Assembly (NCBI GenBank): GCA_944323595.1
Contig: CALUTF010000006.1
Span: 1-64,000, forward strand
DNA from: Candidatus Gastranaerophilales bacterium
GTDB lineage: Bacteria > Cyanobacteriota > Vampirovibrionia > Gastranaerophilales > Gastranaerophilaceae
Direction: 5' to 3'
DNA: 64,000 bases
The position numbers were made by a program, and so were the translations under genes. The notes below the pieces were generated by a model. It ran no database searches. It was not told the origin of the DNA and saw only the letters and a program-made list of their open reading frames with translations. Shown piece by piece: positions 1 to 48,331 of the stretch (the first letter of the stretch is position 1; the number at the start of each line of letters is the position of its first letter).

Positions 1-1835
1 TATGTTATCAGTCTGCATCAAAGAGATTTAATCTCTTTTTTAACCTTAGGTTTGTCGGAGTTTTTAGGTTCAGAGCCGAGCATGAAGCGGAAGCCTCCGG
101 TGAGAGCAACACCGTTTCTACCGCCGTTACGAATCATAGCTTGCAAGAAAGCAGTGAATTTATCAGCCCAGTTACGTTGAACACCAACACCGTATTCTAC
201 GTAAGGTTTAACACTCATTTCTGGAAGCTTAACGTTGTTAGCAGTAACTTTGGATTCATTCATTAAGTTCCAAACCATACCGACAGAAGCGTACGGCTGC
301 CAACCGCCCTTGAGGTTCGCAATGAACCTAACACTAGGGTTTAATTGAATAGTGTGCAACGGGTCGGATTCAATGCTAACTCCAGCAGCATTTTTATAAT
401 CAAAGGTGTTAACAAATGTATAAGACAAGAACATAATCGGTTGGATAATGAACTTACCGTCTTTAAATTCAAAGTTGTAACCCGTTTTAGAACCAACACC
501 TGCTAATAAACTAGTATAATCTTCTTTACCGTACATAGTATGAGATTCACCAACAGAAGCACCAGCTGATGCGGTGATGGCAGTCCAGAAGTTACCTTTG
601 TAGAAAGTTTCGGTGAAACCTAATAAGCCGCCGTTCATAGTAGTATCAACGCCGCTATAATTTAAACTAGAGCCCATATAACCTGCATAACCAGTGAAGA
701 CTCTGCTCCAGCCGTTTTTCATTTCTTTGAAATCACCGTCGAAGCCAACAAGCGAACCGTAAGTAATGGCATCGACTTTCGGTCCGTTTTTAATGTTCAT
801 GGTTTCAAAAGTGGTATACGGTCTGAACCAAACGCCTTTGTTATGTAAGTTATCAGCGTATGACGGCAAATTATCGTTAAAGTCAGTACTTAATGCATAT
901 TTGTTAGCATTGATTTTAGCGTAACGTTCCATAGCAGGTAATTGAGTGAACGCATCAGCGTGTTCAAAGACGTATTTGAACGCTTCGTTCATAGCAGCTT
1001 GACCGGCAGCAAGATTACCGACAGGAGTTGCCAGAACAGCAGGGTTGAACGCATCAGACGGGTTGCCTGTGGTTCCGCCACCTGTAGGCGGAATTGGTAA
1101 ATTAGGTTCATCCGGTTCATCTGGTTCGTCGGGCAGAATAATGTCGCCTTTGGCAAAGACAAAGTAACCGCCGTCGCCTTTACCGTCGTATTGATTGTCT
1201 TTGTCGTAGATAACATTGTATTTGTATATAGGTGTGTAAGCAGTTGTTTGGAAGCTGTCGGGAAGATCCCCTGTGCCACCTGAGACCGCGTTAACAACGT
1301 TGTTTTTCAGGTCAGGTTCAGCGAAATAGACAGCGGTGACAGATTCACCCTGAACAGCGTCAGACAAAAGATTCATACCTATGACATTTAAGTTACCGTT
1401 GTGTTCGCCATAGCTATCAGCCGTAAGCCTGTCCATTTCTTTGTTAGCTAAATCGACATCGGCAACAAAATTTGTATCGCCTGTGAGTGTAAAACTATTT
1501 ACATCATAGACGTGTACAGAGTCATTAACGGTATTTAAAGTAGTATTACCAGCAAAGAGGTTGCTGTTTCTGATATCGTTTAGCAAGTAGAACGTAGTAT
1601 TGTTAATATCATCACCTGTAATATTAACTGTATATCCGTCAATACCGTCGATGTTGTCTTTCATAACAACGCTTCCACCGTTTTTCATATTGAAAGATAA
1701 CGTTAAATCGTTACCGTTCATATAAATAGCGTTGTCATCCTTGACCCCGTTTGATTCCGTGTAGTTGCCCTCGAAGACAGTTTGTGCGTTATCTGCGATT
1801 ATATTGAGGTCTTTTGTAGAATAAATAGCGCCGCC
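1..1835. repeat. Long direct repeat, copy 1 (autotransporter 3' part)
   Basis: This stretch matches 19797-21650 at DNA level, with offset 19796 over the first 1.1 kb. Most of it differs by scattered, mainly synonymous changes, but 760-1121 is identical to 20556-20917. It encodes the linker and beta-barrel. The first four bases (TATG) match those after the intergenic repeat at 19617-19796, so the duplication may extend past the left edge. Confidence 0.85.
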
Positions 1836-4076
1836 TTGAGCTTCTCCGTTAGTTGATTGTGCATAGTTGTCAATAAATGAAGAATTAATTATTCCTCCTA
1901 TAATTGTATTGTCATTATCTTTTGCCCCTATGGTGCCGTTGTTATAAATCGCCCCGCCGTAGCTGCTGGCAGAGTTTCCAATAAAGTCACCGGTGATATC
2001 TCCGATTGTGCCGCTGTTGTTATAAATCGCCCCGCCGTAGATGCGGGCAGAGTTACCAATAAAATCACCTGTGATATCGCCTATGGTGCCGCCGTTATAA
2101 ATCGTCCCGCCGGAGTTGGCAGAGTTCCCAATAAAATCGCCAGTGATATCTCCGATGGTGCTGGTATCGTTATAAATCGCCCCGCCGTAGTTGCGGCCAG
2201 AGTTTCCAATAAAGTTACCGGTGATATCTCCGATGGTGCTGCTGGTGTCGTTATAAATCGCCCCGCCATAGCTGCTGGCATAGTTTCCAATAAAGTCACC
2301 GGTGATATCTTCGATGGTGCCGCTGTTCCTATTATTAATCGCCCCGCCGGAGTTGCGGGCAGAGTTTCCAATAAAGTCACCGGTGATATCTCCGATGGTG
2401 CCTCTGTTATTCTCAATCGCCCCGCCGTAGAGGCTGGCAGAGTTTCCAATGAAGTCACCGGTGATATCTCTGATGGTGCCTCTGCTATTTTCAATCGCCC
2501 CGCCGGAGCTGTTGGCAGAGTTTCCAATAAAGTTGCCTGTAATGTTGCCGATGGTACTGTCTTCGTTATAAATTGCCCCGCCGTCGCTGCTGGCAGAATT
2601 TCCAATAAAGTTTCCGGTGATATCTCCGATGGTGCTGCTGTTCCTATTATAAATCGCCCCTCCGTCGCTGCTGGCAGAATTTCCAATAAAGTCACCGGTG
2701 ATATCTCCGATGGTGCCGCTGCTGTTATCAATCGCCCCGCCGGAGTAGCGAGTCGAATTCCCAATAAAATCACCGGTGATATTGCCAATTATAGCATAGA
2801 AGTTAAAAATCGCCCCGCCAGTATTGTCGCTTGAATTTCCAATAAAGTCCCCAGTGATATCTCCGATGGTGGCGCTGTTGTTATTATTAATCGCCCCGCC
2901 ACCGTCTCCGGCAGAATTTCCAATAAAGTCACCGGTGATATCTCCGATGGTGCCGCTGCTGTTATCAATCGCCCCGCTGCTGCTGGCAGAGTTTCCAATA
3001 AAGTCACCGGTGATATTGCCAATTGTACCATGGTAGTTATAAATCGCACCACCACGACCATCAACAGCAGAATTTCCAATAAAATTACCTGTGATATCGC
3101 CGATGGTCTCTCTGTTATAAATCGCCCCGCCACCGTCTCCGGCAGAATTTCCAATAAAGTCACCAGTGATGTTGCCGATAGTGCTGCCCTCGTTACGGAT
3201 CGCACCACCATGGTCTCCGGCAGAATTCCCAATAAAATCACCTGTGATATCGCCAATTGTGCCAACGTTATAAATCGCCCCGGCGGCGCTGTTGGCAGAG
3301 TTTCCAATAAAGTCACCGGTGATATTGCCAATTGTACCATAGTAGTTATAAATCGCCCCGCTGTACCTGTCGGCAGAGTTTCCAATAAAGTCACCGGTGA
3401 TATTGCCAATGGTGCCTCTGTAATTATAAATCGCCCCGCCGACGCTGCCAGAGTTTCCAATAAAGTTACTTGTAATATCGCCGTAATTTGTACCGGAGGT
3501 GATATCTAATCTTCCGGAAGTATTAGTGTTGTCATAAAGCACATTAATAATAACATCTTTGACAGGAGAGTTTTGGAGCGTAATGGTGTATTTTTGATTG
3601 CCCTCGCCGTAAGTTGTCTGCTTTAAATTCCACTGGTAATAAACCGGGGAAGCTTCCTTAAAAACGACTTCCTTGTACTGAACATCGGGCAGTCTGTCTG
3701 CCTCTGCCACTTCTTTGCCAGTCACAGGGTCGTAGTAATGCGTAACCGGCTTGAGCTCGTATTTTGTGATAATGTTGTCACCCGCAGGTGCTGCGCCGTC
3801 CTCGCCTGCAGGAACTTCCGTCAAAGTATAAGCGCTTTCGGGCGCTAAGATAGAGCCGCTTTCTACAAGGTTCCCCTCGTCATCATATTCTGTTTGCGGG
3901 ATTTGTACATTATTTTCGTGCAAATAGTCTAAAGTAGGCTTATTGAGCGGAATTTTACTCAAATCGACATCAGCAAGTTCTGCTGCCATCGCGGGAGTTA
4001 TACCGAGCAGCAAAGCCGCTAAAAGCGTTCTAGAGGTTAGACTGCCCCCCCCCTGTAAGAAATGCTGATTTATCAA
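18..4076 (-). CDS. Giant repeat autotransporter 1 (phase-variable candidate)
   Basis: Predicted type V secreted surface protein. The in-frame ORF has a signal peptide (hydrophobic LLAALLLG core ending TPAMA), a passenger with about 20 copies of a 24-27 residue unit built on DFIGNSA...GGAIYN...TIGDITG, a linker (DEPDEPDEP then a PTGGG stretch) and a C-terminal beta-barrel of about 270 residues starting near GVWFRPYTTFE. The passenger unit resembles beta-helix adhesin repeats; adhesion is an inference. The in-frame ORF begins at a TTG at 4076 that has no ribosome-binding site. The well-placed ATG is at 4098 (GGAGGT, 7-base spacing) but is out of frame because of a run of nine G at 4045-4053. 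Loss of one G joins that ATG to this frame. As sequenced, the gene is therefore probably off. The barrel is nearly identical to that of the autotransporter at 19814-23914. Confidence 0.85.
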   Translation of the reverse strand: MINQHFLQGGGSLTSRTLLAALLLGITPAMAAELADVDLSKIPLNKPTLDYLHENNVQIPQTEYDDEGNLVESGSILAPESAYTLTEVPAGEDGAAPAGDNIITKYELKPVTHYYDPVTGKEVAEADRLPDVQYKEVVFKEASPVYYQWNLKQTTYGEGNQKYTITLQNSPVKDVIINVLYDNTNTSGRLDITSGTNYGDITSNFIGNSGSVGGAIYNYRGTIGNITGDFIGNSADRYSGAIYNYYGTIGNITGDFIGNSANSAAGAIYNVGTIGDITGDFIGNSAGDHGGAIRNEGSTIGNITGDFIGNSAGDGGGAIYNRETIGDITGNFIGNSAVDGRGGAIYNYHGTIGNITGDFIGNSASSSGAIDNSSGTIGDITGDFIGNSAGDGGGAINNNNSATIGDITGDFIGNSSDNTGGAIFNFYAIIGNITGDFIGNSTRYSGGAIDNSSGTIGDITGDFIGNSASSDGGAIYNRNSSTIGDITGNFIGNSASSDGGAIYNEDSTIGNITGNFIGNSANSSGGAIENSRGTIRDITGDFIGNSASLYGGAIENNRGTIGDITGDFIGNSARNSGGAINNRNSGTIEDITGDFIGNYASSYGGAIYNDTSSTIGDITGNFIGNSGRNYGGAIYNDTSTIGDITGDFIGNSANSGGTIYNGGTIGDITGDFIGNSARIYGGAIYNNSGTIGDITGDFIGNSASSYGGAIYNNGTIGAKDNDNTIIGGIINSSFIDNYAQSTNGEAQGGAIYSTKDLNIIADNAQTVFEGNYTESNGVKDDNAIYMNGNDLTLSFNMKNGGSVVMKDNIDGIDGYTVNITGDDINNTTFYLLNDIRNSNLFAGNTTLNTVNDSVHVYDVNSFTLTGDTNFVADVDLANKEMDRLTADSYGEHNGNLNVIGMNLLSDAVQGESVTAVYFAEPDLKNNVVNAVSGGTGDLPDSFQTTAYTPIYKYNVIYDKDNQYDGKGDGGYFVFAKGDIILPDEPDEPDEPNLPIPPTGGGTTGNPSDAFNPAVLATPVGNLAAGQAAMNEAFKYVFEHADAFTQLPAMERYAKINANKYALSTDFNDNLPSYADNLHNKGVWFRPYTTFETMNIKNGPKVDAITYGSLVGFDGDFKEMKNGWSRVFTGYAGYMGSSLNYSGVDTTMNGGLLGFTETFYKGNFWTAITASAGASVGESHTMYGKEDYTSLLAGVGSKTGYNFEFKDGKFIIQPIMFLSYTFVNTFDYKNAAGVSIESDPLHTIQLNPSVRFIANLKGGWQPYASVGMVWNLMNESKVTANNVKLPEMSVKPYVEYGVGVQRNWADKFTAFLQAMIRNGGRNGVALTGGFRFMLGSEPKNSDKPKVKKEIKSL
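1925..3480 (-). repeat. Tandem minisatellite array in autotransporter 1
   Basis: About 20 imperfect direct repeats of 72-81 bp, all multiples of three. The most constant part reads GAGTTTCCAATAAAGTCACC on the plus strand. They encode the FIGNSA/GGAIYN/TIGDITG unit. The conserved length in threes also keeps antisense frames open, which gives spurious ORFs in this region. Recombination between units could change passenger length without breaking the frame. Confidence 0.9.
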
Positions 4077-4098
4077 GGTTTTTGGATGTTTTATACAT
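4030..4098 (-). other. Out-of-frame leader ORF with strong RBS, upstream of autotransporter 1
   Basis: ATG at 4098 follows GGAGGT with 7-base spacing. It reads MYKTSKNLDKSAFLTGGG, then QSNL and a TAG stop at 4030-4032. It runs through the G9 tract in a frame different from the main ORF. With eight G it would instead continue as GSLTSRTLLAALL into the signal peptide. This is probably the real start of the autotransporter gene, read in its OFF state. Confidence 0.75.
4045..4053 (-). repeat. Homopolymeric G9 tract at the autotransporter 1 signal peptide
   Basis: Nine consecutive C on the plus strand are nine G in the coding sense, encoding glycines just before the hydrophobic signal-peptide core. 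Runs this long are prone to slipped-strand mispairing. Eight or eleven G put the ATG at 4098 in frame; nine and ten do not (ten meets TAA). Confidence 0.85.
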
Positions 4099-4217
4099 AA
4101 ATGATACCTCCGTGTTTATTACACATTACATTAATTACTAACGGAAAATTTTTCGAAGAAATTTAATCTTTTTAGAAAATCGTTACATTCTTTTACATTT
4201 TTTTAGCCATAATATAC

Positions 4218-4247
4218 AAAAAGACGGACTATATAAGTCCGTCTTTT
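4218..4247 (-). terminator. Terminator of pgk
   Basis: Stem AAAAGACGGACT / AGTCCGTCTTTT with a 5-base loop. Read on the minus strand it is followed by a T-run. It sits between the pgk stop and the autotransporter 1 start, so the autotransporter should have its own promoter in 4099-4217; I see no clear -35/-10 pair there. Confidence 0.8.
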
Positions 4248-4268
4248 CAATGTGTATGGAGTTTTTTT

Positions 4269-5471
4269 CTACTTGTCATCCAATGCAGCAACACCCGGAA
4301 GTACTTTCCCCTCAATGAATTCCAGAGAAGCACCACCGCCTGTTGATACGTGGGTGAAATCTTCTGCTTTGCAGAATTTCTTAGCTGCAGAAACTGAATC
4401 TCCGCCGCCGATAACTGATACTGCACCGTTTTTAGTTGCTTCTACTATAGCTTCTAATACAGCCTTTGTTCCCTCTGCAAATGCAGGATTTTCAAACGCT
4501 CCTACAGGTCCGTTCATCAGGATTGTTTTTGAAGATTTAAGAACATCAGCAAATGCTTTTCTTGATTCCATACCTGCGTCTACACCTTCAAACCCGTCAG
4601 GAATTTCATTGATTTTGACGAATTTATTTGTGCCGTTGCCTGAAAAATCATCTGTCACAAGAACATCAGTTGCCATAACCAGTTTAACACCTTTATCAGC
4701 AGCTTTCTTTTCGATAGCTTTTGCAACTTCTAACTGATCATCTTCGCAAATAGAGTTACCAATTTTACCGCCGTTTGCCTTAACAAATGTGTATGCCATG
4801 CCGCCGCCGATAATTAAGTTATCAACTTTGTCGATTAAGTTTTCTAAAACACCGATTTTAGAAGAAACTTTTGCTCCGCCTACAACTGCTGTGAATGGTC
4901 TTGTCGGGTTATCAAGTGCTTGTGACAGGCATCTGATTTCTTTTTCCATCAAAAGACCTGACACTGCCGGTTTAAGAACTTTAGCCAACTTAGCAGTTGA
5001 AGTGTGGTTTCTGTGAGCTGCGCCGAAAGCATCGTTTACATAGAAATCACCGAGTTTAGCCAATTCGTTTGCAAAAGTCATGTCGTCATCTTTTGCTTCT
5101 TCTGCTTTATAGAATCTGATGTTTTCCAACAAAGCTACCTGACCGTCTTTGAGTGCTTCAAGAGCTTTGTCAGCGCCTTGACCTACAGGTTCTGAAACGA
5201 ACAGAACATCTTCGCCGAGGACTTTAGATAAATATTTAGCAACAGGAGCCAGAGAAAATTCCATATTCCATTCACCTTTTGGTCTGCCAAGGTGTGCCAT
5301 GAGAATAATCTTAGCGCCTTTATCTTTCAAAAATTTAACTGTCGGCAAAATAGCTTGAATTCTTGTATCATCTGTAACATTTTTGTCAGCGTCCAGAGGA
5401 ACGTTAATGTCTACACGTACAAGAGCTCTTTTACCTTTAATGTCTCCTAAATCGTGAATTGATTTTTTCAT
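4269..5471 (-). CDS. pgk: Phosphoglycerate kinase
   Basis: Glycolytic enzyme that transfers the phosphoryl group of 1,3-bisphosphoglycerate to ADP, giving ATP and 3-phosphoglycerate in the cytosol. The 400-residue length is normal for the family. Visible signatures are VRVDINVPLD near residue 20, LMAHLGRPKG near 60, the nucleotide-site GPVGAFENP and the C-terminal GGGDSVSAAKKF. The start is well supported by AGGAGA before the ATG. It has its own terminator downstream and appears to be a single-gene unit; no gap or other glycolytic gene is adjacent (pgi lies 40 kb away). Confidence 0.98.
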   Translation of the reverse strand: MKKSIHDLGDIKGKRALVRVDINVPLDADKNVTDDTRIQAILPTVKFLKDKGAKIILMAHLGRPKGEWNMEFSLAPVAKYLSKVLGEDVLFVSEPVGQGADKALEALKDGQVALLENIRFYKAEEAKDDDMTFANELAKLGDFYVNDAFGAAHRNHTSTAKLAKVLKPAVSGLLMEKEIRCLSQALDNPTRPFTAVVGGAKVSSKIGVLENLIDKVDNLIIGGGMAYTFVKANGGKIGNSICEDDQLEVAKAIEKKAADKGVKLVMATDVLVTDDFSGNGTNKFVKINEIPDGFEGVDAGMESRKAFADVLKSSKTILMNGPVGAFENPAFAEGTKAVLEAIVEATKNGAVSVIGGGDSVSAAKKFCKAEDFTHVSTGGGASLEFIEGKVLPGVAALDDK

Positions 5472-19796: not shown

Positions 19797-21650
19797 TATG
19801 TTATCAGTCTGCATCAAAGAGATTTAATCTCTTTTTTAACCTTAGGTTTGTCGGAGTTTTTAGGTTCAGAGCCAAGCATGAAACGGAAGCCGCCTGTGAG
19901 AGCAACACCGTTTCTGCCGCCGTTACGAATCATAGCTTGCAAGAACGCAGTGAACTTGTCAGCCCAGTTACGTTGAACACCAACACCGTATTCTACGTAA
20001 GGTTTAACACTCATTTCAGGGAGTTTAACGTTATTAGCGGTAACTTTGGATTCATTCATTAAATTCCAAACCATACCAACAGAAGCGTACGGCTGCCAAC
20101 CGCCTTTGAGGTTTGCAATGAATCTTACACTCGGGTTTAATTGGATTGTATGCAGCGGGTCGCTTTCGATATTTACACCAGCAGCGTTTTTGTAGTCAAA
20201 AGTGTTCACAAATGTATAAGACAAGAACATAATCGGCTGGATAATGAACTTACCGTCTTTAAATTCAAAGTTGTAACCGGTTTTAGACCCGACACCAGCA
20301 AGCAGTGAAGTATAATCTTCTTTGCCGTACATGGTGTGTGATTCACCAACAGAAGCACCTGCAGACGCAGTGATAGCAGTCCAGAAATTACCTTTGTAGA
20401 AAGTTTCGGTGAAGCCTAACAAACCTCCGTTCATAGTAGTATCAACACCGGAGTAATTCAAAGAAGAACCCATGTAACCGGCATAACCAGTGAAGACTCT
20501 ACTCCAGCCGTTTTTCATTTCTTTGAAATCACCATCGAAGCCAACTAGACTACCATAAGTAATGGCATCGACTTTCGGTCCGTTTTTAATGTTCATGGTT
20601 TCAAAAGTGGTATACGGTCTGAACCAAACGCCTTTGTTATGTAAGTTATCAGCGTATGACGGCAAATTATCGTTAAAGTCAGTACTTAATGCATATTTGT
20701 TAGCATTGATTTTAGCGTAACGTTCCATAGCAGGTAATTGAGTGAACGCATCAGCGTGTTCAAAGACGTATTTGAACGCTTCGTTCATAGCAGCTTGACC
20801 GGCAGCAAGATTACCGACAGGAGTTGCCAGAACAGCAGGGTTGAACGCATCAGACGGGTTGCCTGTGGTTCCGCCACCTGTAGGCGGAATTGGTAAATTA
20901 GGTTCATCCGGTTCATCGGGTTCGTCGGGCAGGATAATGTCGCCTTTGGCAAAGACAAAGTAACCGCCGTCACCTTTACCATCATATTGATTGTCTTTGT
21001 CGTAGATAACATTGTATTTGTAGATAGGTGTGTAAGCAGTTGTTTGGAAACTGTCGGGAAGATCCCCTGTGCCGCCGGAGATAGCGTTAACAACGTTGTT
21101 TTTCAAGTCAGGTTCAGCGAAATAGACAGCGGTGACAGATTCACCCTGAACAGCGTCAGACAAAAGATTCATACCTATGACATTTAAGTTACCGTTATGT
21201 TCGCCATAACTGTCAGCAGTAAGCCTGTCCATTTCTTTGTTAGCTAAATCAACGTCGGCAACAAAGTTTGTATCATCAGTGAGAGTAAAACTATTTACAT
21301 CATAGACATGTACAGAGTTATTAACGGTATTTAAAGTAGTATTACCGGCAAAGAGGTTACTGTTTCTGATATCGTTAAACATGTAGAAAGTAGTATTATC
21401 TTTATTATCGCCAGTAATATTAACATTATAACCGTCAACACCGTCAATATTATCAGCCATAACAATGCTACCGTTATTTTTTAGATTGAAGTTTAAAGCA
21501 GCATCAGCCGCATCAAGATAGATAGCATTATCATCTCTGGAAATATTACCATTGTCATCAATAGTTTCAGTGTAGTTGCCTGAAAAAACACTTTGTGCGT
21601 TATCAGCGATAATATTCAGGTCAGTTGTAGAATAAATAGCGCCGCCCTTA
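19797..21650. repeat. Long direct repeat, copy 2 (autotransporter 3' part)
   Basis: Second copy of the sequence at 1-1835. Perfect identity runs from 20556 to 20917 and is lower on both sides, with many third-position changes. It encodes the linker and beta-barrel of autotransporter 2. Confidence 0.85.
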
Positions 21651-23914
21651 GCAATCGCGTAATTATTTTCATTTTGGACATTGGTATGATCCACTTTAGT
21701 AAAGTTGTTTATAAATGAGGCGTTTAAAATCTCTTTGATAGTTCCAGTGTTATATATTGCGCCACCAAGACTTTTATTTGTAAGGTTATTATTGTTAGTT
21801 TCTGCAGTAGCAATAAGAATAGCACTGTTACTAATAAAATCACCAGAGATAGTTTCAATAGTATCTTTGTTAAGAATGGCACCTCCTATGGCGAGGTAAG
21901 TACCGTATGAACGATCATTGCTGCTTGATACGCTATTATTGACGAAATTGCCAATAATATTTTGAATTATTGCTGAATTATTAGATTTTCCTTCGTTGTA
22001 AATAGCTCCACCTTGACTTGCACTATTATTAATAAAATCGCCAGTAATGGTTTCAATAGTCCCTGTGTCGTTATCAATCGCCCCGCCGTTCTGTGATGCT
22101 GTATTACCAATAAAATTACCAGTAATAGTTTCAACTGTTCCTGCGTTATAAATCGCTCCGCCTAGTTTTGCAGAATTTCCGATGAAATTACCAATAATAT
22201 TTTTAATTAATCCGGAGGAATGACTATCAGTATCACTGTTAAAAATTGCCCCCCCTATTGCCTCAGATGACATGTTTACTGAATTGTTAATAAAGTCCCC
22301 TGAGATAGCGTCAATAGTTCCGCTGTTGTAAATCGCTCCACCGTAGGAGCCATAAGTCCCTGATGCATTATTCTCAATGAAGTTTCCAATAATTGCTTTA
22401 ATTAGTCCGGAATTATATATTGCTCCTCCATATGCATAGGTTGATTCATATGTATAGTTTGGGGCATAGGCACTAGTACTATTATTAATAAAATCACCAG
22501 TGATGTTACCTATTGTGCCGTCGTTATCAATAGCCCCGCCAGTAGCAGAGCCTCCTCCCCACCAGCCGGTTTCTTCATTAATAGAAATAGCACTATTATT
22601 AATAAAATCACCTGTAATAATTCCAATGAATCCATAACTAGAAATCGCTCCGCCTGAATTATCTGCCGAATTACTAATAAAATCACCTATAATAGTTTTA
22701 ATAAGTTCAGAATTATCAATCGCCCCGCCGTCGTAGTCTGCAGAATTGCCAATAAAATCACCAGTGATGTTACCTATTGTGCCGTCGTTATCAATAGCCC
22801 CGCCTGAACTATTTGCCGAATTACTAATAAAATCACCGGTGATATCGCCGATGGTGCCTCTGTTATAAATAGCTCCGCCTGAACTATCTGCCGAATTACT
22901 AATAAAATCGCCAGTGATAGTATTAATGACAGCAGTTTCTGTATTATAAATAGCTCCGCCTCTATTACTGTCTCCTGTTGAATTAGCAATGAAATCTCCG
23001 GTGATATTTTCAATCGTGTTACTGTTGTATATCGCCCCGCCACCAGCCCCATAACTACCAGCGCCATTCTCAATGAAGTTTCCAATAATAGCTTTAATTA
23101 TCCCAGAATTAGCAATAGCTCCACCATTCTGTGCATAATTACTAATAAAATCAGCATTCAGATTCGTGATACTGCCTGAATTATATAATGCCCCGCCATA
23201 AGCGTATATGTCGCCGCTATCTCTGTAGCTTCCCCTACGATAGCTAAGATTAATGGAATTGTTAATAAAATCCCCGCTGAGAGTATCAATATCTGCGGAG
23301 TTGTTTAGGGCACCTCCAAGAATATCGACATCGGTACCTGCTCCATTATTAAGATCCAGATAAACATCAGTTATATTATCCTTAAACAGTACATTTTCAA
23401 AATTTGTAACGCTAGAGACACCTCCAACATGTTGGTAATGATTGTCAGAAGACCCATCAGGATTTTCCAGAGTAACGGGTTGTACCTGATTTATGTATTC
23501 AGAGGTATAATTCCCGCCTGCATTGGTATCCGGTGTAATGTATCTATAAGTGATAGTTACCGGATCAGTAGGGGCGTTGACTTGAAAAGTGAGTGTAGTA
23601 ACGTTATCAGGATTAGTATCAGAAACCCCATACTCAGTTTGTTTAAGACTCATTTGATAGTAAACGGGTGTAAACTCACCAGTTTCGCTGTTATAATTGA
23701 ATTTAGTAATGATATTATCACCGACAGGTGCAGCCCCGTCTTCCCCGGCAGGAACAGGAGTCAAAGAATAAGCGCTATCAGGATAGTAGATTACAGGATC
23801 AGTATCCGGAATAGCCTGACCAGCAAGATTGTCAAGCGTAGGTGTCGCTAAATCATCGGCATAAACAGGAGCCGCTCCGATTAATAAAGCAGCTAAAAGC
23901 ATCTTGGAAGTCAA
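19814..23914 (-). CDS. Giant repeat autotransporter 2 (phase-variable candidate)
   Basis: A 1366-residue paralogue of the protein at 18-4076: signal-peptide core LLAALLIGAAPVYA, a passenger of FINNSA/FISNSA...GGAIYN...IGDITG units that are more diverged and more spaced than in copy 1, the same DEPDEPDEP linker and a nearly identical C-terminal barrel ending VKKEIKSL. It is probably a surface-displayed beta-helix. The in-frame ORF starts only at a TTG (23914) without a ribosome-binding site. The plausible start is ATG 23988 with GAGGA upstream, but the G9 tract at 23919-23927 throws it out of frame. Gain of one G would link them. As sequenced, the gene is therefore probably off. Confidence 0.85.
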   Translation of the reverse strand: MTSKMLLAALLIGAAPVYADDLATPTLDNLAGQAIPDTDPVIYYPDSAYSLTPVPAGEDGAAPVGDNIITKFNYNSETGEFTPVYYQMSLKQTEYGVSDTNPDNVTTLTFQVNAPTDPVTITYRYITPDTNAGGNYTSEYINQVQPVTLENPDGSSDNHYQHVGGVSSVTNFENVLFKDNITDVYLDLNNGAGTDVDILGGALNNSADIDTLSGDFINNSINLSYRRGSYRDSGDIYAYGGALYNSGSITNLNADFISNYAQNGGAIANSGIIKAIIGNFIENGAGSYGAGGGAIYNSNTIENITGDFIANSTGDSNRGGAIYNTETAVINTITGDFISNSADSSGGAIYNRGTIGDITGDFISNSANSSGGAIDNDGTIGNITGDFIGNSADYDGGAIDNSELIKTIIGDFISNSADNSGGAISSYGFIGIITGDFINNSAISINEETGWWGGGSATGGAIDNDGTIGNITGDFINNSTSAYAPNYTYESTYAYGGAIYNSGLIKAIIGNFIENNASGTYGSYGGAIYNSGTIDAISGDFINNSVNMSSEAIGGAIFNSDTDSHSSGLIKNIIGNFIGNSAKLGGAIYNAGTVETITGNFIGNTASQNGGAIDNDTGTIETITGDFINNSASQGGAIYNEGKSNNSAIIQNIIGNFVNNSVSSSNDRSYGTYLAIGGAILNKDTIETISGDFISNSAILIATAETNNNNLTNKSLGGAIYNTGTIKEILNASFINNFTKVDHTNVQNENNYAIAKGGAIYSTTDLNIIADNAQSVFSGNYTETIDDNGNISRDDNAIYLDAADAALNFNLKNNGSIVMADNIDGVDGYNVNITGDNKDNTTFYMFNDIRNSNLFAGNTTLNTVNNSVHVYDVNSFTLTDDTNFVADVDLANKEMDRLTADSYGEHNGNLNVIGMNLLSDAVQGESVTAVYFAEPDLKNNVVNAISGGTGDLPDSFQTTAYTPIYKYNVIYDKDNQYDGKGDGGYFVFAKGDIILPDEPDEPDEPNLPIPPTGGGTTGNPSDAFNPAVLATPVGNLAAGQAAMNEAFKYVFEHADAFTQLPAMERYAKINANKYALSTDFNDNLPSYADNLHNKGVWFRPYTTFETMNIKNGPKVDAITYGSLVGFDGDFKEMKNGWSRVFTGYAGYMGSSLNYSGVDTTMNGGLLGFTETFYKGNFWTAITASAGASVGESHTMYGKEDYTSLLAGVGSKTGYNFEFKDGKFIIQPIMFLSYTFVNTFDYKNAAGVNIESDPLHTIQLNPSVRFIANLKGGWQPYASVGMVWNLMNESKVTANNVKLPEMSVKPYVEYGVGVQRNWADKFTAFLQAMIRNGGRNGVALTGGFRFMLGSEPKNSDKPKVKKEIKSL

Positions 23915-23988
23915 TTTGCCCCCCCCCTCTCTGAGAAAAGGCTATTATTGCTTAATTTGGGCAGTGTAGTAAAAACCGTGTTTGACAT
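23911..23988 (-). other. Out-of-frame leader ORF with RBS, upstream of autotransporter 2
   Basis: ATG 23988 lies 7 bases after GAGGA (another in-frame ATG at 23994 is too close). It reads MSNTVFTTLPKLSNN...SERGG and meets TGA at 23911-23913 just after the G9 tract. With ten G it would read SERGGGKLTSKMLLAALL into the signal peptide, matching the layout GGGSLTSRTLLAALL of autotransporter 1. Confidence 0.72.
23919..23927 (-). repeat. Homopolymeric G9 tract at the autotransporter 2 signal peptide
   Basis: Nine C on the plus strand, nine G in the coding sense. Ten or seven G bring ATG 23988 into frame with the autotransporter; nine and eight do not. It sits at the same place, relative to the signal peptide, as the tract of autotransporter 1. 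Confidence 0.85.
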
Positions 23989-24022
23989 AAACATATCCTC
24001 GCAAGATAAAGTATATATCTAT

Positions 24023-45353: not shown

Positions 45354-45463
45354 AACACCCTTTCCTTTCTTAAACATATTATAAGATAAAAATAGCAAAT
45401 TGTATAAAAAACTGCACAACCGGTTAATAGAAGAGTGAATTTTTAAATTTTATTATCATTGAT

Positions 45464-48331
45464 ATGAAAACTTATAATAAAATTTTACTTACTGCGACAA
45501 TTGTTTTTTTGCTAACATCCAAAACTTATGCAAATGACATTCAGGTTGCGACATTTAGAGAGTTAATGGATTCTCACCCCGCAAGCGGTGATGTCCTTGA
45601 ATTTACTGATGATATGACTTCTGACGAAACAATAGGTCAGAATTTTTATAACCTGGATATAACATTTGAGGGGAATAATCATTCTATAGATGGCAGATAT
45701 GTTTTTGGAGGTTTTGTACTTAATGAAGAAAGTTTGTTCAATCATGTGAGGATTTTAAATTGTAAAGGTCAGGAATATAACAGGTCAAATTTTGCAGGTG
45801 CAATATATAACAGCGGTGGAAATCTGGATATAGAAGAGTCTGCATTCAGCGGAAATTTTACGGATGCTGCAGGATTTAATTTTGGTGTTGGCGGGGCTGT
45901 TTATAATTTGAACGGCGGAACTATTACTATCAACAGAGCACTATTTGAGGATAATTATTCAAACGGTGCATCGTCTTATGGCGGTGCTGTTGCAAACGGT
46001 TATCAACAGGGTGCGGTAGCGGAGATGTCAATCAGTAATTCTGTATTTGATAATAATTATGTCTACGGGTCATTAATTCCTCACGGCGGTGCACTTTATA
46101 ATAATGGGAATTTAAGCATAACAGGTTCTCAATTTAATGGTAATTATTCCGAAGGTCCTGATGGAGCTTACGGTTATGGCGGCGCTTTTGCCAATGAAGG
46201 TACAGGAAATATTGATAACAGCAGTTTTTCTGATAATTATGTAAAAGCCGGTAATTATTCACTTGCCTATGGCGGTAGTATTAGCAATACCACTACGTTA
46301 GATATAAAAAATTCAACATTTGAAAATAATTATGTCCAGACTGTTTCTGATGCAAGGAGTGTTGGCGGCGGGATTTATAATTCCGGAACTCTTACATTAG
46401 ATAACAATTTATTTAAACAAAATTCTTCGACAGGTAATGCTGAAGCTTTTGGCGGTGCTTTATACAATGAAACGGGCGGAAATGTTACAATAAATAATAC
46501 TGTTTGGGAAGATAATACGGTTTCGGGAGCACAAAGCGGCGGTGGTGCTATATATAATCTGGGGACAATGACATTAGACGGCGGTACATTTAGCGGAAAT
46601 TCCGGAATCGGCAGTGAAAATTCCTACGGTGGTGTATTGTATAACGGCACAAGTGGTCATATTACTATCAAGAATGCAATATTAGCAAGTAACAGGATTT
46701 CTGCACCGACCGGAGAGGGGGGAGCTGTTTATAATGCCGGAAGATTAATTTTTGAAAACAGTACATTACGGGATAATACAGGCAAAGCCGGTGAATTAAA
46801 CGATATTTACAATGATAACGGTACTGTAGAATTCGGAGGCAGCGGTACAAATTCAGTTGAAAGCGGAATAGCAGGCAGCGGAGACATAATTAAGACGGGC
46901 AGCGGTATTTTTAACATCGGCGGGGATAATAAAAACTACACTGGAAATTTTAGTCTTAATGGGGGAACGGTTCATCTTCTTGCCAACAGCAGTTATTTTT
47001 CAGCGCAGAATACTTTTTTTGAAAATAACACTAATTTCGATATGCAAAATAATGAAATTAACAATATTAATTTCGAAAATCTTCACCTGAATGGCAGAAC
47101 AAATATTCAGGCTGATTTAGACTTTAACACGCGAACAATGGACAGAATAAATGCATCAGGCGTAAGCGGCAGCGGTTCACTTTTTGTAAATAATCTTGCA
47201 ATGACCGGAGCTCCGGAGGGTGAAAGTTTTTCTATTCCTTTTGCGGACAGTGTTTTGAAAGATTATGTTGATTATAATACAACAACAATAAAAACTCCGA
47301 TATTTAATTATCGTGCAAGTTATAATTCTTCAAACGGTGACTTTGATTTTACGCGTGAAACTTTTAATACTGCTATATTTGCTCCTGCTGTGGCTGCTCA
47401 ATTAGCAGGTTATTTGACACAGTTGGAAACTTACAAGAATGTTTTTGCCAATCTTGATATGGTTATGATTACCCCGCCTGATACAAGAGGAGGGTATTCA
47501 ATTCAGAACAAAACCGCTGCAGCAGGGCAATTTTCTTTCTCACCTTTTGCCATGCCCGAACAGCGCAACGGTATCTGGTTTAAGCCTTATACGACATTTG
47601 AAAATGTTCCTTTGAAAAACGGACCGAAGGTTTCAAACGTAAGTTACGGCGCTATAATAGGCGGAGAAAGCGGACTTCACAAACTTTCAAAAGACTGGTA
47701 CACTTTATACGGTGCGTATGCAGCTTATAACGGTTCTCATCAGAGTTATGACGGAAATGGTATTTATAATAACGGTGGCTTAATCGGTGTTGATGCTGTA
47801 TTTTATAGGGGGAGATTCTTTACTGCCTGGACTGCAGATGTCGGTGCAAATGCAGCAGAAGCAAATACTATTGACGGGAGGGATGAATTCGGTATGTTAA
47901 ATACCGGAATTGCCCAAAAAACAGGGTATAATTTTGAAATACTTGACAGAAAATTAATAATTCAGCCGAGTTTTATAGCTTCATATACCTTTATTAACAC
48001 GTTTAATTACACAACTTCTTCTGATGTAAGCATAAATGCTGAGCCGTTGCATGCAATTCATATTGAGCCACAGATAAAATTAATAGGAAATTTCAAAAAT
48101 TATTTGCAGCCCTACATAAGTGTTTCTATGATTTGGAATATAATAGATGACACTAAATTCCAGGCGAATGATGTTTACCTGCCGGAATTGTCTGTCAAAC
48201 CTTTTGTACAGTATGGCGCAGGTGTGCAAAAACGCTGGGGAGACAGAGTTACCGGATTTTTGGAAGCAATGATACGTAACGGCGGCAGAAACGGTATTGC
48301 GCTTATGTTTGGTTTAAGAATCAGTATTTAG
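45464..48331 (+). CDS. Autotransporter 3
   Basis: A 955-residue surface protein. Signal peptide MKTYNKILLTATIVFLLTSKTYA; passenger of beta-helix units such as NSVFDNNYV...GGALYNNGNLSI and TFSGNSG...GGVLYN, on a 30-50 residue period (about residues 90-450); then a Gly/Asn-rich beta-helix end and a C-terminal barrel (about 700-955) homologous to those of autotransporters 1 and 2 (GIWFKPYTTFENVPLKNGPKV...GGRNGIAL). It has no G tract and no KKEIKSL tail, so it is a constitutive-looking relative. There is no ribosome-binding site; TATTAT ends 7 bases before the ATG. Confidence 0.9.
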   Translation: MKTYNKILLTATIVFLLTSKTYANDIQVATFRELMDSHPASGDVLEFTDDMTSDETIGQNFYNLDITFEGNNHSIDGRYVFGGFVLNEESLFNHVRILNCKGQEYNRSNFAGAIYNSGGNLDIEESAFSGNFTDAAGFNFGVGGAVYNLNGGTITINRALFEDNYSNGASSYGGAVANGYQQGAVAEMSISNSVFDNNYVYGSLIPHGGALYNNGNLSITGSQFNGNYSEGPDGAYGYGGAFANEGTGNIDNSSFSDNYVKAGNYSLAYGGSISNTTTLDIKNSTFENNYVQTVSDARSVGGGIYNSGTLTLDNNLFKQNSSTGNAEAFGGALYNETGGNVTINNTVWEDNTVSGAQSGGGAIYNLGTMTLDGGTFSGNSGIGSENSYGGVLYNGTSGHITIKNAILASNRISAPTGEGGAVYNAGRLIFENSTLRDNTGKAGELNDIYNDNGTVEFGGSGTNSVESGIAGSGDIIKTGSGIFNIGGDNKNYTGNFSLNGGTVHLLANSSYFSAQNTFFENNTNFDMQNNEINNINFENLHLNGRTNIQADLDFNTRTMDRINASGVSGSGSLFVNNLAMTGAPEGESFSIPFADSVLKDYVDYNTTTIKTPIFNYRASYNSSNGDFDFTRETFNTAIFAPAVAAQLAGYLTQLETYKNVFANLDMVMITPPDTRGGYSIQNKTAAAGQFSFSPFAMPEQRNGIWFKPYTTFENVPLKNGPKVSNVSYGAIIGGESGLHKLSKDWYTLYGAYAAYNGSHQSYDGNGIYNNGGLIGVDAVFYRGRFFTAWTADVGANAAEANTIDGRDEFGMLNTGIAQKTGYNFEILDRKLIIQPSFIASYTFINTFNYTTSSDVSINAEPLHAIHIEPQIKLIGNFKNYLQPYISVSMIWNIIDDTKFQANDVYLPELSVKPFVQYGAGVQKRWGDRVTGFLEAMIRNGGRNGIALMFGLRISI

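Follow-up and report, generated by a model that had tools for sequence, protein, structure and literature searches.

Poly-G phase variation is a classical mechanism, with known examples in Campylobacter, Neisseria, and the chlamydial Pmp proteins. Neisseria genomes each contain few phase-variable autotransporters, and pilus-related genes in the same genus are switched by homopolymer tracts. In C. jejuni, 18–39 phase-variable genes have been counted per genome, and one doylei isolate has 81 (PhasomeIt, PMC6321876). Long poly-G tracts are also found in the pmp genes of C. psittaci 6BC, where separate sequencing efforts disagreed by frameshifts, the nature of which the authors left open (PMC3323650). 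Phase and antigenic variation of the Neisseria pilus is the topic of PMC5610331, and PMC3723659 describes NalP and MspA as phase-variable autotransporters switched by homopolymeric tracts in the coding sequence.

Such switching appears to be previously unreported in the Gastranaerophilales; no paper joining this group with phase variation was found in open-access full text, where only a flagellin survey names both Melainabacteria and phase variation. We analyzed a window of 64,000 nucleotides (positions 1 to 64,000 of contig CALUTF010000006.1, assembly GCA_944323595.1) from a Candidatus Gastranaerophilales bacterium, an uncultured gut organism, in which a G9 tract at the start of one gene very probably (about nine chances in ten) acts as a contingency switch that turns translation of a type Va autotransporter, hereafter autotransporter 1, ON or OFF. 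The mechanism is of a known kind; what is new is the group of bacteria in which it occurs, how large the repertoire is, and that the tract usually sits in a leader expected to be removed on export. The features of the locus are as follows.

4045..4053, minus strand: G9 tract, the proposed slipped-strand switch (sequence; in silico length change; G11 in the sibling orthologue)
4096..4098, minus strand: ATG, functional start of autotransporter 1 in the ON phase (used by the in-frame orthologue and a tract-less homologue)
4106..4111, minus strand: Shine-Dalgarno sequence GGAGGT, 7-base spacer to ATG 4098 (identical in the G003 orthologue)
4030..4098, minus strand: 22-codon truncated ORF made at G9, with TAG stop at 4032–4030 (translation)
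18..4076, minus strand: long frame encoding autotransporter 1, a passenger with Pmp-type GGAI repeats followed by a beta-domain; 1,352 aa if counted from TTG 4076, a start that lacks support (PF02415 Chlam_PMP, 65.3 bits)
21..1061, minus strand: C-terminal translocator, helix plus 12-stranded beta-barrel (PF03797; AlphaFold2; Foldseek)
4217..4249, minus strand: intrinsic-terminator-like hairpin separating pgk from autotransporter 1
4269..5471, minus strand: pgk (phosphoglycerate kinase, by eye), upstream neighbor of autotransporter 1, which makes the G003 copy a syntenic orthologue

The tract and the frames can be read directly. The ATG at 4098 lies 45 bases, or 15 codons, ahead of the tract on the minus strand, and reading from it at G9 gives MYKTSKNLDKSAFLTGGGQSNL followed by the TAG at 4032–4030. 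Upstream of the tract, the long frame has TTG 4076 as its only start, with no Shine-Dalgarno sequence there. When the tract was altered in silico, the product from ATG 4098 was 1,359 aa at G8 and 1,360 aa at G11, compared to 19–20 aa at G7 or G10. The ON-frame N-terminus, MYKTSKNLDKSAFLTGGG(G)SLTSRTLLAALLLGITPAMAAE, resembles by eye a long-leadered signal peptide; its putative Sec signal peptide, SLTSRTLLAALLLGITPAMA (also by eye), is joined to the start codon only at in-frame tract lengths, and the tract itself encodes glycines only, ahead of the hydrophobic core. A preliminary description of this DNA had placed the tract, ATG, GGAGGT, and stop at these positions, and its coordinates and frame arithmetic were exact; sequence and frames likewise agree with its account of a large ORF in another frame with a sole TTG lacking a ribosome-binding site, and its proposal that one G less or two more would join the two frames is borne out by the G8 and G11 products, which would begin with a putative signal peptide (by eye). 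Across the window, G runs of 4, 5, 6, and 7 bases number 114, 12, 3, and 1, respectively, and there are two G9 matches against 0.08 expected from dinucleotide shuffles (2 of 100 shuffles also had two). A search just upstream of autotransporter 1 for a sigma-70-like promoter gave no match above chance.

The encoded protein is a type Va autotransporter according to Pfam, structure, and fold search. Scanned by themselves, its last 347 residues score 60.1 bits against PF03797 (Autotransporter; cut-off 26), whereas the Pfam scan of the whole protein had missed the beta-domain. The AlphaFold2 model of the C-terminus consists of a helix followed by a 12-stranded barrel (pLDDT 80), for which the top Foldseek matches are the EspP, AIDA-I, BrkA, and NalP translocators. 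PF02415, the GGA[ILV] repeat of Chlamydia Pmp proteins, scores 65.3 bits in autotransporter 1 and 32.3 bits in its paralog autotransporter 2 (cut-off 20.6). Because the chlamydial Pmps with poly-G tracts have the same repeat type as the autotransporter 1 passenger, the earlier remark that such tracts were not known for this protein group needs correcting. The chlamydial proteins too are autotransporters that combine GGAI-type repeats with long poly-G tracts, with the reservation that the repeats are short and the likeness could be convergent. They differ in belonging to another phylum; in our genome it is the putative signal-peptide leader that contains the tract, and the device is also found on prepilins and glycan genes. 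NalP and MspA, autotransporters switched by homopolymers, resemble autotransporter 1 with its proposed switch, but again come from a different phylum.

Comparison with a sibling species (G003; CALUQN01, Candidatus Gastranaerophilales bacterium BRZ_AE__bin22) gives the strongest test of whether the tract is a switch. The orthologue in this genome (L219) lies downstream of the same pgk and is therefore syntenic; ~200 bp around the tract, including the ribosome-binding site, ATG, and leader, are identical, with 0 mismatches in 80 flanking bases, and the sole difference near the tract is G11 in place of G9, which puts the orthologue in frame. A second homologue in G003 (L209) has no tract, keeps the ribosome-binding site and ATG leader (MYKKPKNLDKSAFS...), and is open from that ATG, the opposite of what the preliminary description had named as speaking against a switch, namely tract-less homologues starting at another codon; the comparison of tract length among relatives that it had proposed gave G11 against G9, a difference between species. 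Because the G003 orthologue is in frame at G11 and tract-less or interrupted homologues use the same type of ATG leader, we consider ATG 4098 to be the real start and the tract to be the frame switch. It is most improbable that the long frame truly starts at TTG 4076 and that the tract is neutral: this TTG is in frame with the long ORF, but besides lacking a Shine-Dalgarno sequence it is at odds with the ATG leader used by tract-less and in-frame homologues. The same evidence, with homologues open from one type of ATG leader, supports the reading of a phase-variable switch put forward at the outset and suggests that the locus is a slipped-strand (poly-G) translational phase-variable locus, at which switching would govern expression. 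A pattern search for alleles with the same leader in viral contigs found none.

Further copies of the device occur in the same genome, beginning with autotransporter 2 in the window.

23919..23927, minus strand: the other G9 tract of the window, near the beginning of autotransporter 2 and likewise out of frame; G7 or G10 would restore the frame
23986..23994, minus strand: two in-frame ATGs (23994, 23988) with GAGG upstream, start region of autotransporter 2
19814..23914, minus strand: long frame of autotransporter 2, which is nearly identical to autotransporter 1 over the C-terminal domain

Autotransporter 2 (contig handle C6, G9, out of frame) has 248 identical bases upstream in common with its C3 paralog (G10, in frame), and the C16 copy (G11, out of frame) shows 98.75% identity over 80 bases. 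Length differences were thus seen directly in near-identical alleles, both between species and between paralogs; at most 6 close paralog pairs, including the G9/G11 pair, could be used to compare tract variability with flanking substitutions, too few for statistics. Two tracts interrupted by a T are held in frame (GGGGGTGGGGGGG in C4 and GGGGTGGGGGGG in C16), and the leader of one T-interrupted paralog is very similar to that of the C9 copy (G12, out of frame); the interruption would be expected to stabilize the tract. Several autotransporter paralogs have no tract, so the family does not depend on switching. A third, more distant autotransporter in the window (45431–48328, 966-aa frame) has no G tract and is apparently not switchable.

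The C-terminal domains of three paralogs are 98–100% identical (window 21–1130 and 19817–20926; L016:2790–3899) and their passengers differ, a pattern suggesting that gene conversion, or recent duplication with passenger exchange, may have occurred. These domains also weigh on whether autotransporter 1 is decaying into a pseudogene, its frameshift having arisen by chance. The gene is out of frame in the assembly, as a pseudogene might be, but the frame stays open for more than 1,340 codons downstream, two paralogs share its C-terminal domain at 98–100% identity, the orthologue is in frame, and the leader is conserved, so we regard decay as a very remote prospect.

Genome-wide (2.05 Mb, 77 contigs), we detected 13 tracts of G9–G12 and only 7 of G7–G8, a length distribution that looks bimodal. 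All 13 tracts of at least G9 are in genes, as G on the coding (sense) strand: five in autotransporters, three in prepilins (PF07963, one just below the Pfam cut-off), and five in glycan-related genes, comprising a two-domain GT2, an SDR in a sugar-biosynthesis cluster, two glycosyltransferases (one without a Pfam match and named by context and paralog), and an AlgX/DHHW-type acetylation protein. Four of the 13 leave the gene in frame and eight put it out of frame; the remaining one affects only the C-terminal tail. Nine are found in roughly the first 40 codons. Near the 3′ end of a glycosyltransferase gene (L014 tract 6900, G000:C10:18889), the length of a G11 tract would alter the C-terminal tail only, much as in C-terminal switching. 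A mid-gene G11 (L014 tract 4197, G000:C10:16186) splits a glycosyltransferase-like gene that has an intact, tract-less paralog directly downstream.

Tracts of at least G9 recur across the family, with a median of 13 and a maximum of 176 among 141 genomes of at least 90% completeness; 33 genomes have at least 50 and 10 have at least 100, and 12 genomes from other families of the order have 0–6. In one relative (G012) with 115 tracts, 45 of the 56 distinct ones read precede a prepilin motif within 170 codons in a long frame, and only one has an antisense frame of at least 100 codons. A pattern of G9, up to 30 bases, and the prepilin motif gave ~297 matches in 37/146 genomes (a few matches in genome G056 being counted twice), and the reversed pattern gave none. 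Placement on the sense strand and in leaders, together with this recurrence, is a matter of direct observation. Since the tracts keep to the sense strand, turn up repeatedly in leaders, and are found in many assemblies, the poly-G is unlikely to be a sequencing artefact. Tracts reach G20 in G023. Because some tracts in G001 and G003 lie away from long frames and resemble parts of interspersed repeats, not every poly-G tract is a switch.

The prepilin paralogs of G012 (L056–L084 even numbers, L130–L169) number in the dozens, with almost identical N-termini and a poly-G tract each; their leaders vary in length and their tracts are mostly out of frame. In L142, L158, L061, and L081, the leader is lengthened between tract and prepilin motif by in-frame stretches that look like translated interspersed repeats.

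The OFF call for autotransporter 1 hangs on a single base in the consensus of a draft assembly; an error of one base in the G9 consensus would flip the ON/OFF state and leave the mechanism unchanged. It is conceivable, if rather unlikely, that a homopolymer error has put the assembled length of a real tract off by one, the gene being simply ON and the tract perhaps still variable. Long homopolymers are error-prone, and some tracts in G056 have NN inside or beside them in the assembly. On the other hand, out-of-frame lengths recur (8/12 switchable tracts here; 36 of 44 prepilin tracts in G012, the other 8 being in frame), in shares fairly near the two thirds that random frames would give, and all three frames are occupied among orthologues and paralogs.

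Homopolymer runs can also cause transcriptional slippage. Programmed slippage of RNA polymerase or the ribosome at the G-run could yield some full-length protein from the G9 allele, with the tract setting the expression level in place of a genetic switch, and the fully intact downstream frame at G9 is compatible with it. Such slippage should conserve both length and frame, however, whereas tracts of 9–12 in all frames occur in this genome, some homologues are tract-less, and some interrupted ones are held in frame; we judge it improbable.

A genetic frame switch is our preferred reading. Ribosomes would initiate at ATG 4098, and slipped-strand mispairing in replication would alter the tract by one base. 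At G8, G11, or G14, the leader would join the long frame to give the extended signal peptide MYKTSKNLDKSAFLTGGG(G)SLTSRTLLAALLLGITPAMA, the Pmp-type passenger, and the beta-barrel, and at other lengths translation would end after some 22 codons at most. Export should remove the leader that contains the glycines, so tracts that are in frame and differ by three bases should give the same mature protein. We infer the slippage, its reversibility and rate, the surface display, and the removal of the glycine stretch on export. Loss of mismatch repair was considered as a cause of slippage and rejected: this genome and nearly all relatives have both MutS1 and MutL, and slippage is therefore not raised by mismatch-repair loss. 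One relative (G005, 98% complete) is an exception in the family, with a MutS1 match under the cut-off and no MutL match. Autotransporter 1 belongs to a larger group of tract-bearing loci in the genome, prepilins and glycan genes among them, which is expanded across the family, and the outcome would be surface diversity in the gut population.

This set resembles the Campylobacter poly-G/C phasome in having poly-G as the dominant repeat, in its surface and glycan genes, and in frame switching, but the 18–39 genes of C. jejuni compare with 100–176 tracts of at least G9 in some Gastranaerophilales relatives, in which MutS1 and MutL are present. Unlike the Neisseria pilus, the prepilins here comprise dozens of paralogs with a tract in each leader. 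We lean, with some reserve, towards the view that this family has among the largest poly-G phase-variation repertoires in bacteria (some species have 100–176 tracts in a 2-Mb genome), with dozens of prepilin paralogs that are mostly silent and each have their own leader tract. In a clonal gut population, the subsets of pili, autotransporters, and glycans that are expressed may then change continually despite MutS/MutL.

The usual position of the tract, inside a leader expected to be removed on export, is a design feature of interest for other lineages, and the tracts described here show where to look in existing metagenomic reads. The switchable set also means that the presence of a gene in Gastranaerophilales genomes does not imply its expression. 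The Gastranaerophilales are gut members of the cyanobacterial phylum that are not regarded as pathogenic and whose host interactions are little known, and so large a switchable set, covering pili, autotransporters, and glycan enzymes, is a sign of strong selection by host immunity, phage, or competitors.
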